Source: Prostheceraeus crozeri
Lineage: Eukaryota; Platyhelminthes; Polycladida; Euryleptidae
Reading direction: 5' to 3'
Assembly (NCBI GenBank): GCA_907163375.1
Contig: CAJQUW010008738.1
Coordinates: 165,001 to 229,000, forward strand
Length of the DNA: 64,000 nucleotides
Positions 4,721 through 61,832 of this stretch are shown here, piece by piece; positions within the stretch are counted from its first letter, which is position 1, and each line of letters opens with the position of its first letter. Both the position numbers and the translations under genes were made by a program. The notes under the pieces were generated by a model. It did not search any database. It worked only from the letters and a program-made list of their open reading frames with translations, and was not told where the DNA came from.

Positions 4721-5605
4721 AGGACAATACAACTATGATGCAGACGACGTCAATCGGTACTGGCTCTTAAAGGTTTATAGGCATTAAATTGGGTGCCTTA
4801 ACTTTCAAACTTTTCTAATACTACCTAGTCCTACAATTAGATACATGGATTAATCCCTGAGTCGGAGTCCCATCAAACCCCAGAGTCGGTTTCCCATCAA
4901 ATCCTGGAGCAGTGGATCAAATTGCTAGGACTCCCCACACCTATCTTGAACTACAAATGAACTACATATTATAATGTAATTATTACTATGAATTCATTTG
5001 GCAGATGAGGTGGAGACTGAATTCTTCCTCATCTTCAAATTGTTCATTTCTAGGACGTTCGAAATTTCTGGCAAGAATAGTAAATGGCATGGAACCACAT
5101 AAGTGTCATATAAGCAAATTGGCAGTAGGCAGTGATTTTACTCCGGTTGAACCGGGATTGTCGATTCAATCATAATAAGAAAATGTTGGCAGCAAATATA
5201 ACACTAAATTGAGCCTTTGATGGAGACACATCATTGCACTTCAATCGGAGACATAAGTTTCCTTTGCTTATGAAATCAATCAACCTCTCAGCAAAAAAAA
5301 CTTGAGAAGACGAAGACGACCAAGAAAGACGGAGCAAATCAAAACAACAGATCAAGAGACATTCTGATGTGTATATATTATATTCATAGATTGTGAGTCT
5401 CTTATAGTTGGGAAATGTAAGGCACGGTAACAGACATGGAGAAATATTGTGCCACCGCAGCCGAAGTAAAAGTTAAAACCAAAGTAATAACATGATGTAT
5501 CAACATCTGATTAATTACATCAACTCTTATATGCTTAAACTCTTGAGACTATAAACAAAGTCAACAAATTTCTAAATACGTTGGCCATACCCGAGTTTGA
5601 ATAAT
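4721..5605. other. Intergenic; short 24-bp duplication
   Basis: Two tandem copies of a 24-bp unit starting GAGTCGG and containing CCCATCAAA lie at 4859 and 4883. Otherwise no gene or transposon end was recognised. Confidence 0.4.
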
Positions 5606-5802
5606 GGAGTTGATTTGTGCTAATAGCCTTGCGGGCATAAAATAAAAATACTCTGTTGAGTAAATTTTCCATTTAATCTTCGTCAGACTCTCACATTTGG
5701 TGAGAGTATTGATGTGAGAGTCTGACGAAGATTAAATCGAAAATTTACTCAACACAGTATTTTTATTTTATAACCGCAAGGCTATTAGCACAAATCAACT
5801 CC
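5606..5802. repeat. Long inverted repeat (hairpin 1), 90-bp arms
   Basis: Positions 5606-5695 and 5713-5802 are near-perfect reverse complements around a 17-nt loop, with only a few mismatches. Each arm contains TGACGAAGATTAAAT followed by GAAAATTTACTC. This resembles the TGAnGAAG...GAAAA motif in the hairpins at 17948-18127 and 55332-55457 and in the single motif at 53424-53446. Such motifs are typical of the 3' ends of Penelope-like retroelements; that attribution is an inference. The structure would fold into a roughly 90-bp duplex if transcribed. Confidence 0.7.
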
Positions 5803-7439
5803 AAAGTCAACAAAGTCCCTTAGTCCACAGTGTTCAGCAAGGGGATGGAATGATCAACGATTTCATCCATGCCAAGAGCTGTGGCAAAAGTGCTTTGTGC
5901 ATTTGAAGAACATGGGGTGATCATCATCACAGATTAGCCTTCTCGCTGCAACTGGAGAATTTTATTGTTTACAACAATAAAATAGTTAATAACATAGCTG
6001 AAAACAATTTTAGGTGATGGAGTGCTCCATCACTTGAGCAATCACTTATATTAGTTTGGTTGCTCCATCGAGAAATTTCTTCTTTAGAAGCTGTCTGTCA
6101 ATCGTTCAATGCCAAGCACAATTTGTTCACCTAATTTTATCTCTTTGGTGAAAGCCTATCGTATTATGGCGCTGAAAAGGATTTCCACGCATTGAAAAGG
6201 CTGCTAATGCACGCAAGGTATATGCATGAATGACGTTTTGTACTAAGAAATGACAATAACTGCGTCAATTTAGTTTCTTCAACGCTTTTGATGGGCGGAA
6301 GACTAACATTCTCCTTGAAATTTTCTGCAACTAAGACATTTGGCAATTCATGAAAGAAAAAAGAAAGTTGGTGTGTCCGATCCATTGTCATCTATCGACA
6401 ATTCATCATGATGAAGACATAAATTTTGAGACTTTCTCATTTTGGATAATTTTGTGTGACATTTGGTGTTTGTTTAAACGCATCAAAATAACTGATGGTT
6501 TCACAAGCTTAATCTGATCTGGTCATTTCATAGCTTCATTGGTCTTCGCAAAAATCTAAAGCAACCAGAGCAAAAGTAATATTAGTTGTGATGGCTGCTC
6601 TGGTAAGTATTTCAGTTGTTCTAGGCACATTCGCTTCATGCTGATATCTTTAACTGCACCTAAATTGGCAATCGAAAATTATCCAAGTAACTCTTCAGTG
6701 AGACCATTACGCAGAAAAAGGTTGAATAAGTCATTAATCGTCTTCTATCATCTTTTCACTATTGCTTGATGATAGATTAAATAGATTAAAATGTTGCTGC
6801 TAAAATGGGACATTGTCTAGTCATTGAAGTCGCCAATTCTGGCTTAACATGTATACTAATTCATCAATTGATCCTCTTATTATGTAGGCTATATTTACAA
6901 CTGAGTTTTATGGTTCAAGTGTTCACGTAAAATTGCAAGCTTTGCCGTCATTGTGTGGTTAAGATTTGATACTTGGCAGTTTTTTGTTCAATGCGCAAAT
7001 TTCGCATTTCATAGAAATTTTGTGAAAACGGCTTTTTGGGACAGAGGACTCTTATTTTTTTGGAGTTCATCAAATTTACCGTGCTTCAATGTTCCAGGTG
7101 AGATATATTTTCGAGATACATTGTAGCTTTTTCTGGTCCCTGTTCTTTCTTTTGGGAAATTGATTTCACTAAATTATTCTATCCGGCGAGAGTGATAGAC
7201 TTACCATGATCATTGAATGGTAGGCCCTAGAAATTTGCTTTCCCCAATGTGACTTTCGAATTTCTTGAGTATAAGTGACTTACTTCGATCGATCATAACA
7301 AGGATCCAGGTTATCTCTTTCTCATCTATTGTAAGAGTGCTCTCCACTTCCTTTTACCTGCATTCAGGGCAGAAAAGAGATTTGTCTCGATCACTAGATA
7401 TTCAACTTTTCAAAATTCAGCTCTTTCTAATACTATACA
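5803..7439. other. Intergenic; one perfect short palindrome
   Basis: No gene was recognised in 1.6 kb. A perfect 9-bp-stem palindrome, GTGATGGAG-TG-CTCCATCAC, lies at 6015-6034. Several AT-rich open frames lack any family signature. Confidence 0.4.
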
Positions 7440-15642: not shown

Positions 15643-17439
15643 CAGGGTGGGCCAGAAGTCCCCTGCACTTTTTGAAAATGGAAAAGACATCAAGTTATAC
15701 TTAATGAGTGTCTCTAACGGCTCATAATTCAATTTGTTATTGAAATTATCATCTAAATTAAAGTTTAAGAGTTGCTTTACGACTAGATTATACACATTTA
15801 TAATGATGTATATACGCCCCATTTATCTTCTAAATTTCCGAAAATAAATACAAAAACAGTAAGTATTTGGAAAAAGGATTTTCTTATTTATCAAAAGGGT
15901 CAACTTGGTTACCTTGGTGATCTATGCACAACTGCATTCGACGGAAAGTACGGTCATGAATTCTTTTCAGAGTCTCTTTATCAAAACTTTCAAACAAGTT
16001 CTTTATGACACATTTCAAATCATCAACATATTCACATTTCATTGAAATAACCTGTCGCTTCAATATTCCCCATAAAGCGTTGTCACAGGAAGACAGGTCG
16101 GGACTGCGTGCAGGCCAGGCAATCGGACCGAACTTACCAACCCATCTGTCTGGGAAAACGGTATTGAGATAGTCCCTCGTGGCATGGGCGGTATGGGAAG
16201 GGGCACCGTCTTGTTGGAAATTAGCGGAATACAAGAGTCCAAGTCTCTGCAATTCTGGTATGAAATGCGTTCGTAACAATTCAATATAGCGTGCAGAAGT
16301 TATTGCTCCTTCCATGAAAAATTGTCCAATTAAGTGATCACTACTCATTGCCGCCCATACCACTTGGAGGATGCTGATGAACTTGTTCCCAAAAGAAAGG
16401 ATTTGCTTTGCTCCAGAAAACCGAGTTGACATTACGCCCGTCACCGTAAAATGCACATTCATCAGAAAAAAAGCAGGTTCCTCCTGCGGCCAATCGGATA
16501 TCTGACTAGAATGTCGCGACAACATTTGACTCTGAGATCACGATCATCATCCGAAAGATACTGAACCTTCACGGATTTGAAAGGTCTGTAATTCAAATCG
16601 GACTTAAATATTCTTCGAAGCGTTGTTCTGGGAATATTCAATTCTTCAGACCGTCTTCTGGAACTTAGCGTAGGGTTGGCTTCCACCGAGGCCTCGACAT
16701 TTGTAGCATAATCACCTCGCTCGCTGGGACGACCAATTCTTGCACTGTCATTAATACTTCCTGTTTCAAAAAGTTTATTCATCCATTTTCGAATCTGTTC
16801 TCCTCTCGGGGGTTCCACGTCATAACACCTTCGTAACTTGTCCTTTACTTCCCGCATTGCTTTATTTGAACGATCGGATTCGTATAACCATGCCGCTGCT
16901 TGAATACGAAAAGGTATACTGTAAGGTGACGAGTCAGTCATCATAGGATTCAACAGAGCGAACTCCAGTTTACTTCAAAATGATATTTATTCAATAATCA
17001 CAATGCAGTGCGATAAAAATTCAAATCTCTTTGAAATTAAGCGATTAATGATGACATGAAATCAACCCAATCATTGTCAAATTTCCAGGTTGAGATATCG
17101 GATAATCAAATTCTTTGAAACGGAATTTTCAAATTAGGAAGTAGAGATATCGAACAATCAGTTTCTTTAAAAACTGAAAGGAACAGAAGATCAGAAGATC
17201 GGATCTCTATGAAGAGAAGAGAAGATTGGATCTTTATTGATTACACATTACACTAAACGATAATGAGGTTAATTAATGAGATTATCAGATGGAAAGTATG
17301 CCTAAAATGCTCTCATCACATGTATTTGACCTCCTATACATATGTTAATCAAACTTAAGCATTTCTACACCGATTTTTACTATATAAGTTAAGGAATAAT
17401 TCACATTTTAAAAAGTGCAGGGGACTTCTGGCCCTCGCC
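15643..17439 (-). mobile_element. Tc1/mariner-superfamily element, DD41D type, 1.8 kb
   Basis: The two ends share GGCCAGAAGTCCCCTGCACT plus TTTT as inverted repeats (left copy at 15650-15673, right copy at 17409-17432). The outer 11 bases are less well conserved. The left end begins TA-CAGGGTGGGCC, consistent with the TA target of this superfamily. The interior is filled by a minus-strand transposase pseudogene. TIR identity is high internally, so the copy is not very old despite its frameshifts. Confidence 0.8.
15884..16944 (-). pseudogene. DD41D mariner-type transposase, frameshifted
   Basis: The first ATG is at 16944. The N-terminal third is a helix-turn-helix DNA-binding region of the type common in arthropod Tc3/mariner-like proteins (IRKWMNKLFETGS, ARIGRPS, LNIPRTTLRRI). 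The catalytic part follows: FSDEC with the first Asp, QQDGAPSHTA with the second, and SPDLSSCD with the third, 41 residues after the second, hence DD41D. Full length would be about 350 residues. Two frameshifts break it: one at the run of seven A at 16464-16470 and one near 16365. The frames otherwise lack stops, so the gene died recently or the homopolymer shift is an assembly error. In a living copy it would cut and paste the element at TA sites. Confidence 0.8.
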
Positions 17440-17947: not shown

Positions 17948-18127
17948 AGATAAATTAAAAAAATCAACGTAGTCTCAAGATAGAAATTGTTTATTCACGA
18001 ATTTTCGTCTAAGACTTCATCAGGTGAACGAAGTACATTTACTTCGTTCACCTGATGAAGTCTTAGACGAAAATTCGTGAATAAACAATTTCTATCTTGA
18101 GACTACGTTGATTTTTTTAATTTATCT
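17948..18127. repeat. Perfect inverted repeat (hairpin 2), 88-bp arms, 4-nt loop
   Basis: Positions 17948-18035 and 18040-18127 appear to be exact reverse complements around the loop CATT. Each arm contains CCTGATGAAGTCTTAGACGA followed by AAATTCG, close to the CUGAUGA...GAAA core of hammerhead ribozymes and to motifs at Penelope-like 3' ends. Perfect arms imply a young structure or gene conversion between the arms. It is bordered by a TA/GATA microsatellite on the left and, after about 35 bases, by an AT microsatellite and another hairpin on the right. Confidence 0.8.
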
Positions 18128-34023: not shown

Positions 34024-34450
34024 ATCAGCTGTAAATGGTAACAGTATTACAACACCGTTATTACTGCAATCACGGCAATAATTGCCCGAAGCATATTTTG
34101 CCGGTAATTACTTCAGTCAATGGTGATAGAACGGGGGCACGCTTTCGCTAGCGGTTAGTGCGTCACCGTGCAGCGAGAATATGACATCAAAAGCCAATAG
34201 TTAGAATTTTGTGATTAAATTTCTTCATTCTATATTTCTATTCATCGATTTCGATGAGCAATGCATCAAAAGGAAGGTCAAAAAGGTCTCGTTCTCTCCT
34301 GTTCTTGATTCCAGGGGTGGGCCGACGTGACAATGTGCGACAATTTTTCGTATCAAAATAAAATGTAGCAATGCGTTTTCATTGTTGGTGTGAAAAAATG
34401 TGACAAATTCACAATCAAAAAATAATTAGACAGAAGTAGCATGACAAATA

Positions 34451-35238
34451 CCGTATTTACTCTATTAAGCGCCGGACCTCTAATACCCGCCCGCCTCTAA
34501 TAAGCGCCGGGTCTGGAGCATATTGAATGTAATAAGCGCCGGGTGTTGTATATTGTACTGACCATCTGTGTTCACAGATGGAAAACAGAGTTTTCATGTC
34601 ACAAAATCTGTCATTCGCTGAGGAGACAAATTAAAGGGATCGTGCTGACCTAATCTCGTCAGCTGGGTTAGATGACTGAACAATGGAATCGTGCATGACG
34701 CTGCCATAGCGCTAGCAGTCTGCCGGTATCTCTATTGTCATTTGCAACGTGTGCACGCTTTTGTAGCTCACTGACATACCGGTTACTCTATTCTAACGCG
34801 TTTTTTGCAAGCTTAATAATAGACTTGTTTGAATCCTTAGTAAATGCTATTTTCTTACTTACCAGCGTCAACGGTAAGTCCTCATTATGCACCGTAGACC
34901 TATTAAGTTCGATAGGAAAATTATGAGTCAAGTAATACCTGTGTCACGTAAGCTTAGGAGGCCTCTAGACATCGTGTAAGAACTTCAGAAATTTCATAGG
35001 TCTAATTCTCTAATTGATATAAGATAGGCCTACCTCAACGGATGAACAGATTCATGAAATTTGATCGTTTTGAAATTTAGTTTCGGCTAACCAATTTCTT
35101 CTTTTTTTTGAATTCTCAATTGAGCTGAAATTAATAGGCGCCGGGCCTCTAATACCCGCCCACCTCCAATAAGCGCCGGGTCTAAAAAATCTTCAATGTA
35201 ATAGGCGCCCCCGGGCGCTTATATTAGAGTAAATACGG
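34451..35238. mobile_element. TA-flanked MITE with AATAAGCGCC repeats, 788 bp
   Basis: The left end CCGTATTTACTCTATTAAGC and the complement of the right end CCGTATTTACTCTAATATAA share a terminal inverted repeat flanked by TA. Inside each end the GC-rich unit AATAAGCGCCGGGTCT or variants (AATAGGCGCC, CTAATACCCGCCC) is repeated several times. TA duplication and palindromic ends suggest a Tc1/mariner-type MITE, but no transposase is present. Confidence 0.6.
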
Positions 35239-35598
35239 TATATGATGAACTCAAAGTCATAAATGAGCATTAATTCGAAACGATTTGCAACGCTCTCTCG
35301 CTCTTCTATGTTTTCCGCTCACACACTCTCTCTCCACTGCTCGTTCGCTCAGAAGTATTCACCTCCAGTGTTTTTGATTATATTTCTTAAGTGTTGGGAC
35401 TTGATTGGGTCACCTCTTACAAATAGCTATGCGACATCGGCATGTTAATGTGTTAATGACGGGATGGTGCAAAGCTGAAATTGTACATCAATCGACCCGG
35501 AAAACCTAGATTTGGCATCGAAAAGCCGTAGACACTCTGCATGTATTTTCATTTGACTTTTCAGTTAGGTGTGCAAGAATCTACTGCATTAAATTTGA

Positions 35599-40403: not shown

Positions 40404-40540
40404 GTGTACCAAAGAATTCATTCAGACGCTAACAATCGAAACACTAGAATTATTGTGGTTATCGGAAAATTCAAGTTGATCTAATTTGAATCAGTTCGAT
40501 ATATTTCAATGGCTCACTGCTATCCTCTGTGAGCAATATA

Positions 40541-40826
40541 TATATATATACTTATCTCCTGTCTCAGCTCCACTCACATGTCCTGTCTCTGCACCACATC
40601 CCCTGTCTCTGCTCCAATTTTCAAGAAATTCATATATCGAAGTCCTGTCTCTGCACCATTCACCCCTGTCTCTGCTCCACAACATGCTGTCTGTGCTCCA
40701 AAACCCCATGTCTCTGCACCATATATCATGTCTCTGCACCACCAAAACGGATTCTTTTTGAAAGAACGCCTGTCTCTGCTCCAGTATTCCATGTCTCTGC
40801 ACCTTTTTGTCCTGTCTCTGCACCAC
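40541..40826. repeat. 16-mer array on a 21-nt pitch, adjoining a TA microsatellite
   Basis: Eleven copies of CCTGTCTCTGCWCCAC or close variants start at 40557, 40581, 40601, 40643, 40664, 40685, 40706, 40726, 40768, 40789 and 40810. Steps are 24, 20, 42, 21, 21, 21, 20, 42, 21 and 21. The pitch is thus about 21 nt, with two slots (about 40622 and 40747) occupied by unrelated sequence of one unit length. Cores alternate GCACCA and GCTCCA. Spacers of 4-5 nt vary. The first unit is a variant (CTCCTGTCTCAGCTCCAC) that joins TATATATATATACTTAT. The array is bracketed by a 10-bp inverted repeat, GTTATCGGAA (40458) and its complement (40868). Open frames in several phases are a consequence of the 7-codon period. 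Confidence 0.85.
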
Positions 40827-44764: not shown

Positions 44765-45490
44765 AGCTTTCGGAGAAATTTCATTCAAGGACTGATTGCA
44801 GATGAAGGAAAAGGTTCAAAAAGAAATTTCTCCGAAATTCCAACCATAGGTCAACCGCGAGGCAAGTTCGACTTAAGTTTTCGATTAACTATCCAGAAGA
44901 TTGTCCAACTATCAAGTACATTTCTGAAACTACATACACTGAAGTGCATCCCAGTCGATTGGAAGCACAGCAAACCTTTTGCTTCATCTGCAATCAGTCC
45001 TTGAATGAAATTTCTCCGAAATTCCAACTATAGGCCAACTGTCAGGTATGTTAGACTTAAGTTTTCGATTAACTATCCAGAAGATTGTCCAACTATCATG
45101 TAGATTTCTGAAACTGCATGAGAAATCTAGTAGATAGTAGAGGCATCTTCCAGATAGTGGATTTAGATTTAGGCCGACGTTAAGGAAAGTTGCATATCTG
45201 AGACCATGACTGACCTCTTGGTGATACGGGAAGCTGATGAAGATGAACCCCTTGAAATGGTGTGTCTCCAGACCTGAAATTCGACTGAGATGCACTACAG
45301 GGCATGCAGTATCAGAAATGTACTTGATAGTTGGACAATCTTCTGGATAGTTAATCGAAAACTTAAGTCGAACTTGCCTCGCGGTTGACCTATGGTTGGA
45401 ATTTCGGAGAAATTTCATTCAGAGATTGATAACAGATTATGTGAAGGGTTTGTAGGGCTTCCAATCGACTTGGATGTATTTAGGGTGTGT
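44765..45490. repeat. Cluster of about 182-bp units in direct and inverted orientation
   Basis: A block containing TTTCTCCGAAATTCCAAC, TTAAGTTTTCGATTAACTAT and AGAAGATTGTCCAACTATCA occurs at about 44825-44931 and again, in the same orientation, at about 45007-45115. It occurs a third time inverted at about 45305-45415. Flanking parts (GTCGATTGGAAGC, CATCTGCAATCAGTCCTTGA) also recur in the expected order, giving a unit of about 182 bp. The first unit is itself preceded by an inverted copy of its end (44765-44810 against 44968-45018). The open frame at 45418-44984 runs through the repeats and is not considered a gene. Confidence 0.7.
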
Positions 45491-47201: not shown

Positions 47202-47783
47202 ATTCAAAATTGAAAATCATTGTTGTTAAGCATGTTTAATGATTGGAAAGCTTATAAGCATTGTCAAAATACATCGATTATCATTATTGAACCAAAAATA
47301 CGCAATTACAATATCTTAAAAACTTGCATTGATGATTCATGCATAAACCTCGGTTGAACATTGATGACAAATTCGCATTGATAAAATAAAGATTATTCAA
47401 AATTGAAAATCATTGTTGTTAAGCATGTTTAATGATTGGAAAGCTTATAAGCATTGTCAAAATACATCGATTATCATTATTGAACCAAAAATACGCAATT
47501 ACAATATCTTAAAAACTTGCATTGATGATTCATGCATAAACCTCGGTTGAACATTGATGACAAATTCGCATTGATAAAAATAAAGATTATTCAAAATTGA
47601 AAATCATTGTTGGTAAGCATGTTTAATGATTGGAAAGCTTATATGCATTGTCAAAATACATCGATTATCATTATTGAACCAAAAATACGCAATTATGATA
47701 TCTTAAAAACTTGCATTGATGATTCATGCATAAATCCCGGTTGAACATTCATGATAAATTCGCATTGATAAAATAAAGATTAT
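47202..47783. repeat. Three-copy 193-bp tandem repeat
   Basis: Units start with ATTCAAAATTGAAAATCATT at 47202, 47395 and 47589 (193, 194 and about 195 bp). The first two are nearly identical and the third differs at scattered positions. Each unit carries TTGATGATTCATGCATAAA near its middle. No coding frame. It immediately follows the dispersed-repeat terminus at 47127-47190. Confidence 0.85.
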
Positions 47784-47789
47784 TATTTT

Positions 47790-59782: not shown

Positions 59783-60230
59783 CCCACTACAAAAAGATTC
59801 GTCGGAAAGACGTCGGAACGAGGTATGGTAGTCGGAAAAAGGTCGGGAAATTTTTTTGACCCTTAACATGCTAATTCTGACCTCATTTCTTTGAATTTAA
59901 GCAGAAATTATGATAAAAATGGCTTTTTTGATTGAGTTAATTGTAGCAAGACATTGAAGACGAAGACATGCGGATATGATTGTGATGATATTGATTACTC
60001 AAGCAAGCTTCAGAAAGGGAAAGGAAAATATATAACACTTAATTCCTGATCAATTGACGTTTTCATGTAATTCTATAGACATCCTACTTGTGAAATAGCA
60101 GATAGGAGGTCTAGGGTGTCTTTTTTATAATGAGGCTTCGGTTTCCGACGTCGTATCGGCCATGCGGACATTCTGTTCCTCGGAACGAGTTCGTTTTCGA
60201 CGTCGGACCGACGTATCTTTTTGTAGTGGG
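59783..60230. mobile_element. CACTA-like MITE, about 448 bp
   Basis: The left end CCCACTACAAAAAGATTCGT and the complement of the right end CCCACTACAAAAAGATACGT are near-perfect inverted repeats, beginning with CACTAC one or two bases in, as in CACTA/EnSpm elements. Several GTCGG units follow at the left and their CCGAC complements at the right. GT flanks both ends; a 3-bp duplication is not evident. Non-coding. Confidence 0.65.
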
Positions 60231-60282
60231 GTCGAGTTGATCTTCATACTCAACTCCGCATTTGAAAAATTCGACTTTTTTA

Positions 60283-61832
60283 GTGGAGCTGAGACAGGAG
60301 ATAAGTATATATATATATATATATAAATACGAAATGTGCTCTCCTGCCCCACCGAGAATTGTACTCTCCTGCCCCACTTGTACATGAAGGGACCAGGGCC
60401 TACAACAATCGTCGGACCAGGCATTTGGAGGTGCTCTGACTGTCATATATCTTCATTCATATCAGTACATATCACAGCACAATCATATTCCGCAAAAGCT
60501 AACTCTAAATATGAAAATTGAGGGCCTACAGCAATCGATCGTCGGACCAGGCATTTGGAGGTTCTCTGACAGCCATAGCACTTCTTTCACATCAGTACAT
60601 ATCAATGCACAATCATATTCCGCAAAAGCTAACTCTAAATACGAAAATTGAGGGCCTACAGCAATGGACTGACCATGCATTTGGAGGTGCTCTGACTGTC
60701 ATATATCTTCATTCATATCAGTACATATCACAGCACGATCATATTCCGCAAAAGCTAACTCTAAATACGAAAATTGAAGGGACCAGGGCCTACAGCAATC
60801 GTCGGACCAGGCATTTGGAGGCGCTGACAGCCATAGAACTTCTTTCACAACAGTACATATCAATGCACAATCATATTCCGCAAAAGCTAACTCTAAATAT
60901 GAAAATTGAGGGCCTACAGCAATCGATCGTCGGACCAGGCATTTGGAGGTTCTCTGACAGCCATAGCACTTCTTTCACATCAGTACATATCAATGCACAA
61001 TCATATTCCGCAAAAGCTAACTCTAAATACGAAAATTGAGGGCCTACAGCAATGGACCATGCATTTGGAGGTGCTCTGACTGTCATATATCTTCATTCAT
61101 ATCAGTACATATCACAGCACGATCATATTCCGCAAAAGCTAACTCTAAATACGAAAATTGAAGGGACCAGGGCCTACAGCAATCGTCGGACCAGGCATTT
61201 GGAGGCGCTGACAGCCATAGAACTTCTTTCACAACAGTACATATCAATGCACAATCATATTCCGCAAAAGCTAACTCTAAATATGAAAATTGAGGGCCTA
61301 CAGCAATCGATCGTCGGACCAGGCATTTGGAGGTTCTCTGACAGCCATAGCACTTCTTTCACATCAGTACATATCAATGCACAATCATATTCCGCAAAAG
61401 CTAACTCTAAATACGAAAATTGAGGGCCTACAGCAATGGACTGACCATGCATTTGGAGGTGCTCTGACTGTCATATATCTTCATTCATATCAGTACATAT
61501 CACAGCACGATCATATTCCGCAAAAGCTAACTCTAAATACGAAAATTGAAGGGACCAGGGCCTACAGCAATCGTCGGACCAGGCATTTGGAGGCGCTGAC
61601 AGCCATAGAACTTCTTTCACAACAGTACATATCAATGCACAATCATATTCCGCAAAAGCTCATACGTGGGGCAGGAGAGTCAGTGGGGCAGGGGCGTACA
61701 TTTCATATTCGTCCGTGGGGCAGGAGTGTACAAGTGGGGCAGGAGAGTACAATTCGGTGGGGCAGGAGCGCACATTTCTTATTTATATATATATATAACC
61801 AGTTGTAACTCGCGCCCCACCAAAAAATACAC
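60283..61832. mobile_element. Satellite-bearing element bounded by inverted arrays and TA microsatellites
   Basis: Left arm 60306-60383 is a TA repeat, AAATACGAAATGTGC, then two TCTCCTGCCCCAC units. It is the near-perfect complement of right arm 61728-61797 (GTACAAGTGGGGCAGGAGAG, GGTGGGGCAGGAG, TTCTTATTTATATATATA). The right side has three further GTGGGGCAGG units at 61666, 61683 and 61715. Outside the left TA repeat lies AGTGGAGCTGAGACAGGAGA followed by TAAG, identical to the complement of the first unit of the 40541-40826 array. Outside the right TA repeat lies another GCCCCACC. Between the arms sits a higher-order satellite. No coding capacity is believed real. Confidence 0.75.
60396..61660. 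repeat. Higher-order satellite: three-monomer unit of about 386 bp, three rounds
   Basis: Monomers of 124-134 bp each start GGGCCTACAGCAAT and end TCTAAATAYGAAAATTGA. Starts are 60396, 60522, 60652, 60786, 60910, 61040, 61170, 61294, 61424 and 61558. Monomers fall into three classes by internal variants (TCGATCGTCGGACC / TGGACTGACC / TCGTCGGACC after GGGACCA). They recur in the order A-B-C: 60522-60909 (388 bp), 60910-61293 (384 bp) and 61294-61660 (last monomer cut at 61660). Identity between rounds is clearly higher than between neighbouring monomers. The long open frames across the array are artefacts. Confidence 0.88.

Follow-up and report, generated by a model that had tools for sequence, protein, structure and literature searches.

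A satellite-like array of three-monomer rounds between inverted arms in TA-rich DNA of Prostheceraeus crozeri: a putative foldback-like transposon

Results

The window, by which we mean the whole stretch of 64,000 nucleotides that was analysed, holds the N-terminal part of a PSMC5 (proteasome) gene, an RT ORF and a hAT-like ORF with a 98% match in one sample contig. A search with the PSMC5 part scored 7995 proteins; among the 120 listed, the highest-ranking named entries include the flatworms Spirometra, Calicophoron, Schistosoma, Clonorchis, Fasciola and Macrostomum, together with a mole rat (in first place), a mite, a mussel, rotifers and a coral, so that by sequence the source is an animal and perhaps a flatworm. 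The unit described here consists of a tandem array between two inverted arms, with a TA tract at the outer end of each arm; a further short module, which may or may not belong to it, lies beyond each tract. Its parts are listed below by position in the window and strand, with the basis of each call in brackets.

60282..60305, plus strand: left outer module AGTGGAGCTGAGACAGGAGATAAG (39-nt identity, together with the start of the TA, to 40574-40536)
60306..60325, no strand: left TA tract, 20 nt (tract scan)
60312..60384, plus strand: left inverted arm with two CTCCTGCCCCAC motifs, its outer part overlapping the TA tract (blastn)
60385..60395, plus strand: first 11 nt of the array, the end of a C-type monomer (monomer alignment, TRF start)
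60396..60785, plus strand: round 1 (390 bp), made of m1 (A position, C-type middle), B and C (monomer alignment)
60786..61169, plus strand: round 2 (384 bp), made of A, B and a C that has a 4-nt gap (monomer alignment)
61170..61557, plus strand: round 3 (388 bp), made of A, B and C (monomer alignment)
61558..61660, plus strand: final A monomer, broken off after 103 nt (monomer alignment)
61661..61726, plus strand: inner right arm, with three additional motif modules that have no collinear counterpart in the left arm (motif search)
61727..61797, minus strand: right inverted arm, terminating in the TA tract (blastn)
61784..61797, no strand: right TA tract, 14 nt (tract scan)
61799..61820, minus strand: right outer module, related in inverted orientation to the one at 61715 (local score)

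Tandem array

TRF placed the array at 60385-61660 (period 388, 3.3 copies, 97% matches), a length of 1,276 bp within the 64-kb window, and a second call covered 60408-61660 with a period of 130 and 9.7 copies. Cut at a conserved site, the array gave ten monomers of ~130 bp, m1 to m10, with lengths of 126, 130, 134, 124, 130, 130, 124, 130, 134 and 103 nt, the last being incomplete. They fall into three types, A (m4, m7, m10), B (m2, m5, m8) and C (m3, m6, m9), which from m2 onward follow one another as B-C-A. Identity was 100% among the three B monomers, among the three A monomers and between m3 and m9, and m6 differed from m3 and m9 solely by a 4-nt gap; the figure of 99.2% for m6 in the MAFFT alignment is due to MAFFT's gap placement. 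Between types, identity ranged from 85 to 96%.

Measured from the start of m1, the three rounds are 390, 384 and 388 bp long. A comparison of round 2 with round 3 gave 384 identities, 0 mismatches and 4 gap positions; for round 1 the corresponding figures were 377, 11 and 2 against round 3, and 373, 11 and 6 against round 2. All 11 mismatches and both gap positions that separate round 1 from round 3 come from the comparison of m1 with type A. The array begins with an 11-nt C tail and its last A monomer is incomplete at 61660, which puts both edges out of register with the round. An earlier note on this DNA had described a compact three-round repeat in a discrete 1.5 kb unit at 60306-61797; TRF and the monomer alignment both found it there, and its spacings of 388 and 384 bp were recovered and could be refined to the three round lengths given above.

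The first monomer stands in the A slot, directly before a B monomer, and has a composite sequence. Over the first 40 alignment columns it matched A and B at 4 of 4 C-unique sites, with one private base at column 10, and over columns 50-85 it matched C at all 8 C-unique sites; it then returned to the A/B base at column 90 and to an A-only base at column 121, and it is without the terminal 8 nt of C. To judge from the alignment, this pattern is a trace of conversion or of double exchange, presumably from C into A. The rounds are without substitution where complete A, B and C monomers are compared and the arms differ from one another, which suggests that enlargement or homogenisation of the array came later than the divergence of the arms; the arms, however, were perhaps never identical.

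Inverted arms

In a blastn comparison within the window, the left arm (60312-60384) matched the right arm (61727-61797) at 94.5% over 73 aligned columns (E 4.6e-26), and the pair includes one perfect 29-nt inverted piece. The motif GTGGGGCAGGAG, with up to 2 mismatches, had 13 matches in the window, compared with a mean of 1.05 and a largest count of 5 in shuffled sequences, 0/100 of which reached 13. Of the 13, two fall in the left arm and five in the right, one of these five with 1 mismatch; one is just outside the arms and five are elsewhere in the window. A chance origin of the arms is ruled out by the blastn E value of 4.6e-26 together with the excess of motifs over the shuffles.

The left-arm motifs lie at 60341 and 60366 on the minus strand, and those of the inner right arm at 61666, 61683 and 61715. 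Part of the right arm is duplicated, 61680-61709 being an 87% copy of the terminal module at 61754-61783. The description of the two ends as inverted copies built from motifs and TA repeats stands with an amendment: the arms are unequal, and the right one begins at 61661.

TA tracts and outer modules

The earlier note had placed the limits of the unit at 60306 and 61797. TA tracts lie there on both sides, and related sequence continues outside both of them. On the right, the outer module resembled the module at 61715 with a local score of 14, which 4 of 8848 native 30-nt windows reached, and a GTGGGGCAGGAG motif with 2 mismatches lies at 61809-61820, beyond the TA tract. When 61660-61826 was folded as single-strand DNA, the 61715 module and the outer module paired across the TA tract as an imperfect hairpin (-19.2 kcal/mol, a value without a shuffle control). 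On the left, the likeness between outer module and arm was not significant, 1868 of 8848 native windows reaching the score, and the module at 60282-60305 may be a part of the element or a relic of another insertion.

A second locus carries sequence identical to this left flank. At 40536-40825, a (TA)7 tract adjoins a minisatellite of 11 TGGWGCAGAGACAGG copies ~21 nt apart, which account for 11 of the 15 matches to TGGWGCAGAGACAGG in the window (up to 3 mismatches; shuffle mean 1.54). The outermost minisatellite unit with its TA (40574-40536) shows a 39-nt identity to the left flank of the element. Kinship between the arm motif and the TGGWGCAGAGACAGG array was considered and found not significant, the score being reached by 99 of 1083 native 114-nt windows. 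Windows around the two compared loci were excluded from these native-window tests, both for the outer module and for the minisatellite.

The presence of outer modules flanking both TA tracts means that the structure possibly reaches from 60282 to 61822. As far as the sequence allows, either the element may span about 60282-61822 or it may lie next to what other insertions into TA left behind. No target-site duplication above chance was found outside the TA tracts: exact 7-mers numbered 0, and nine-mers with one mismatch flanking the tracts numbered 1, compared with 1.28 in random pairs. A duplication of TA itself is unreadable, since it would be indistinguishable from the TA tracts.

Coding content and relatives elsewhere

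Two ORFs of at least 150 aa lie in the unit (60515-61039 and 61287-61808), and both are repeat-derived. The array ORF at 60515-61039 matched 0 Pfam families; by these two observations the unit has no transposase of its own. Rfam gave 0 matches in the window at gathering scores. A coding or RNA reading was considered, and the absence of Pfam families (ORF 60515-61039) and of Rfam matches (window) speaks against it. Searches for relatives gave no match in plasmids and phages and, for two patterns, 0 stretches in viral contigs. In prokaryote genome contigs (257 billion bases) a pattern with 17 fixed bases was found in 8 stretches, which is no more than chance, because ~30 were expected by our estimate.

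Discussion

We read the unit as a putative non-autonomous foldback-like TIR transposon in TA-rich DNA that carries a locally homogenised satellite-like array, and put the probability of this reading at roughly 0.62. Its ends are inverted and made of short repeats in unequal number (2 left, 5 right), as in foldback elements, and the array lies between terminal inverted repeats, as in tandem-repeat-bearing non-autonomous elements of the MITE-like kind. The likeness of the arms, the motif excess, the TA tracts at both arm ends, the duplicated right-arm module, the substitution-free rounds 2 and 3, the C-type middle of m1 and the lack of a Pfam family in the ORF 60515-61039 are in keeping with it, as is the wealth of other mobile-element-like features in the window. 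Counting against a transposon are the outer modules, which leave the true ends ambiguous, the lack of a target-site duplication above chance outside the TA tracts, and the lack of a second copy of the arms or the monomer in the 64-kb window. The earlier note had proposed a mobile satellite carrier. "Carrier" is a fair reading, because a TIR element with a satellite-like array would have this anatomy. Array and arms occur a single time in 64 kb, which neither refutes nor supports a carrier.

If the unit is such an element, its motif modules would presumably be bound by a transposase that another element supplies in trans, the arms would delimit the mobilised unit, and the TA microsatellite would be its preferred target. 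The array may have expanded from about one round inside the element, via unequal exchange or slippage, and may then have been patched by conversion.

A much wider claim can be built on the same anatomy, namely that this is an undescribed foldback transposon family of the TA microsatellites of this animal, with a higher-order satellite as its standing cargo, seeding three-monomer-round arrays at TA microsatellites genome-wide, with the outer modules and 40536-40825 as relics of the same system. We consider this claim speculative and would expect it to fail more often than it held.

The outer modules bear on a composite origin, in which at least two insertions entered one TA microsatellite, so that arms, outer modules and array would each have a history of their own and the 1.5 kb would not have been mobilised as a single unit. 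The left outer 24 nt with its TA group with the minisatellite at 40536-40825, and the motif array of that minisatellite shows no significant likeness to the arms (99/1083); the right outer module is of the arm type but inverted across the TA tract, as such a history would allow. The inner arms, however, match each other as a pair and enclose just one array, and we regard a composite origin as unlikely.

The unit could also be immobile, with a G-rich, TA-bordered minisatellite duplicated in inverted orientation on either side of an array formed in place. A sole copy in the window, the unreadable target duplication, the different motif numbers of the two arms and the out-of-phase array edges would all agree with this; both arms nevertheless share the order of their modules from the TA inward and co-terminate beside TA, in the manner of a transposon, and a purely local origin seems to us about as unlikely as a composite one. 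It is very improbable that the unit is a non-autonomous element of the Helentron type (HINE) with a satellite-like array at its centre: HINEs do often hold a short satellite-like array and a microsatellite, but in the available sections of the oyster account (PMC7492417) the microsatellite closes the left flank and the array follows it, whereas here both TA tracts are external to the arms, which are themselves long inverted copies.

For the putative foldback-like transposon, the closest parallels come from the available portions of the cited papers, and by analogy with these the kind of element would already be known, having the plan of Tetris and of the miDNA4 MITE. Tetris of Drosophila virilis carries ~220-bp TIR-220 repeats in its TIRs and has been proposed as a source of longer arrays; its repeat number differs between alleles, which the authors attribute to possible unequal exchange (PMC4079207). 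Like this foldback element, our unit is non-autonomous, with inverted ends and satellite-like tandem repeats within. The layouts differ: as described there, Tetris has its repeats within its two TIRs, which are long (up to 1,735 bp), and has target duplications of 8-10 bp (PMC4079207), whereas our unit has one central array between short arms and no readable duplication. The miDNA4 element, a Tc1/mariner MITE of Xenopus tropicalis, has an internal satellite of variable copy number and so resembles our unit, being small and non-coding with an array flanked by inverted ends; its superfamily is Tc1/mariner, whereas that of our unit is unassignable, and the available passages on it do not mention a three-monomer round (PMC12628747, PMC9659126).

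Other systems match the ends better than the array. MuTAnT elements are Mutator-like elements of Medicago that lie in TA microsatellites, whose repeats mask most target duplications; TA-repeat flanks, modular foldback-like inverted ends and a target duplication that is hard to read are features in common with our unit, but MuTAnTs are plant MULEs, mostly of 200-300 bp, with terminal GGGG/CCCC, and the portion of the paper available mentions no satellite array (PMC4486113). In Tm1, a Mutator/Foldback element of root-knot nematodes, the ends are likewise made of short tandem motifs in numbers that differ between the ends; by the available account, its 14-bp motif has another sequence, its target duplications are of 9 bp and it has no TA preference (PMC3169594). 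The non-autonomous Helentron element Cg_HINE carries short satellite-like arrays dispersed through the genome of the Pacific oyster, but its described ends comprise subterminal inverted repeats, a left-flank microsatellite and a 3' palindrome (PMC7492417); those found here are long, inverted and TA-bordered, and the right one can fold into an imperfect hairpin. The statement that our unit, though comparable in plan to Helitron-associated elements, has different ends is in agreement with this.

The unusual point is the three-monomer round inside so small a carrier; otherwise the unit brings together features that are each known. Higher-order repeats are mentioned for the euchromatic tandem families of Tribolium (PMC5844308), and in the available text of the literature on the compared elements we did not find a higher-order repeat described inside a TIR element. 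The array shares with centromeric-type satellites a multi-monomer A-B-C round, with rounds 2 and 3 free of substitutions, over 1,276 bp in this window, and the earlier note had called such a round normally a feature of large centromeric satellites. A centromeric origin does not follow from it, because near-identical rounds and a patched m1 would be products of exchange or conversion that are possible in any short array. The array appears instead to show higher-order repeat formation by exchange in a very short array, with the patched m1 as its trace, and a higher-order repeat alone should therefore not signal a centromere. If the unit is mobile, it would add a further small TIR transposon able to spread and grow satellite DNA, with the round structure pre-formed inside a 1.5 kb unit.

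Other repeats in the window

The window is otherwise rich in mobile-element-like features. Just left of the element, 59783-60230 is likely a separate MITE of 448 bp, with 36-nt inverted ends that are 86% complementary and begin CCCACTACAAAAAGAT. The region 44820-45481 is foldback-like, with copies of up to 179 nt (85-95%) nested in direct and inverted orientation, and at 34445-35244 direct repeats of 78 nt (85%) with AATAAGCGCC-type motifs lie inside a 23-nt inverted pair (91%). A perfect 25-nt inverted pair at 15649-17434 encloses two ORFs, one with a sub-threshold match to DDE_3 (21.4 bits; cut-off 28.6), and this region is probably a Tc1/mariner-like element. Two near-perfect palindromes were also seen, one at 5605-5803 (92-nt arms, 96%, 15-nt loop) and one at 17948-18127 (88-nt arms, 100%, 4-nt loop), and an AT-rich tandem repeat of 193 bp occupies 47202-47784 in three copies with 97% matches.
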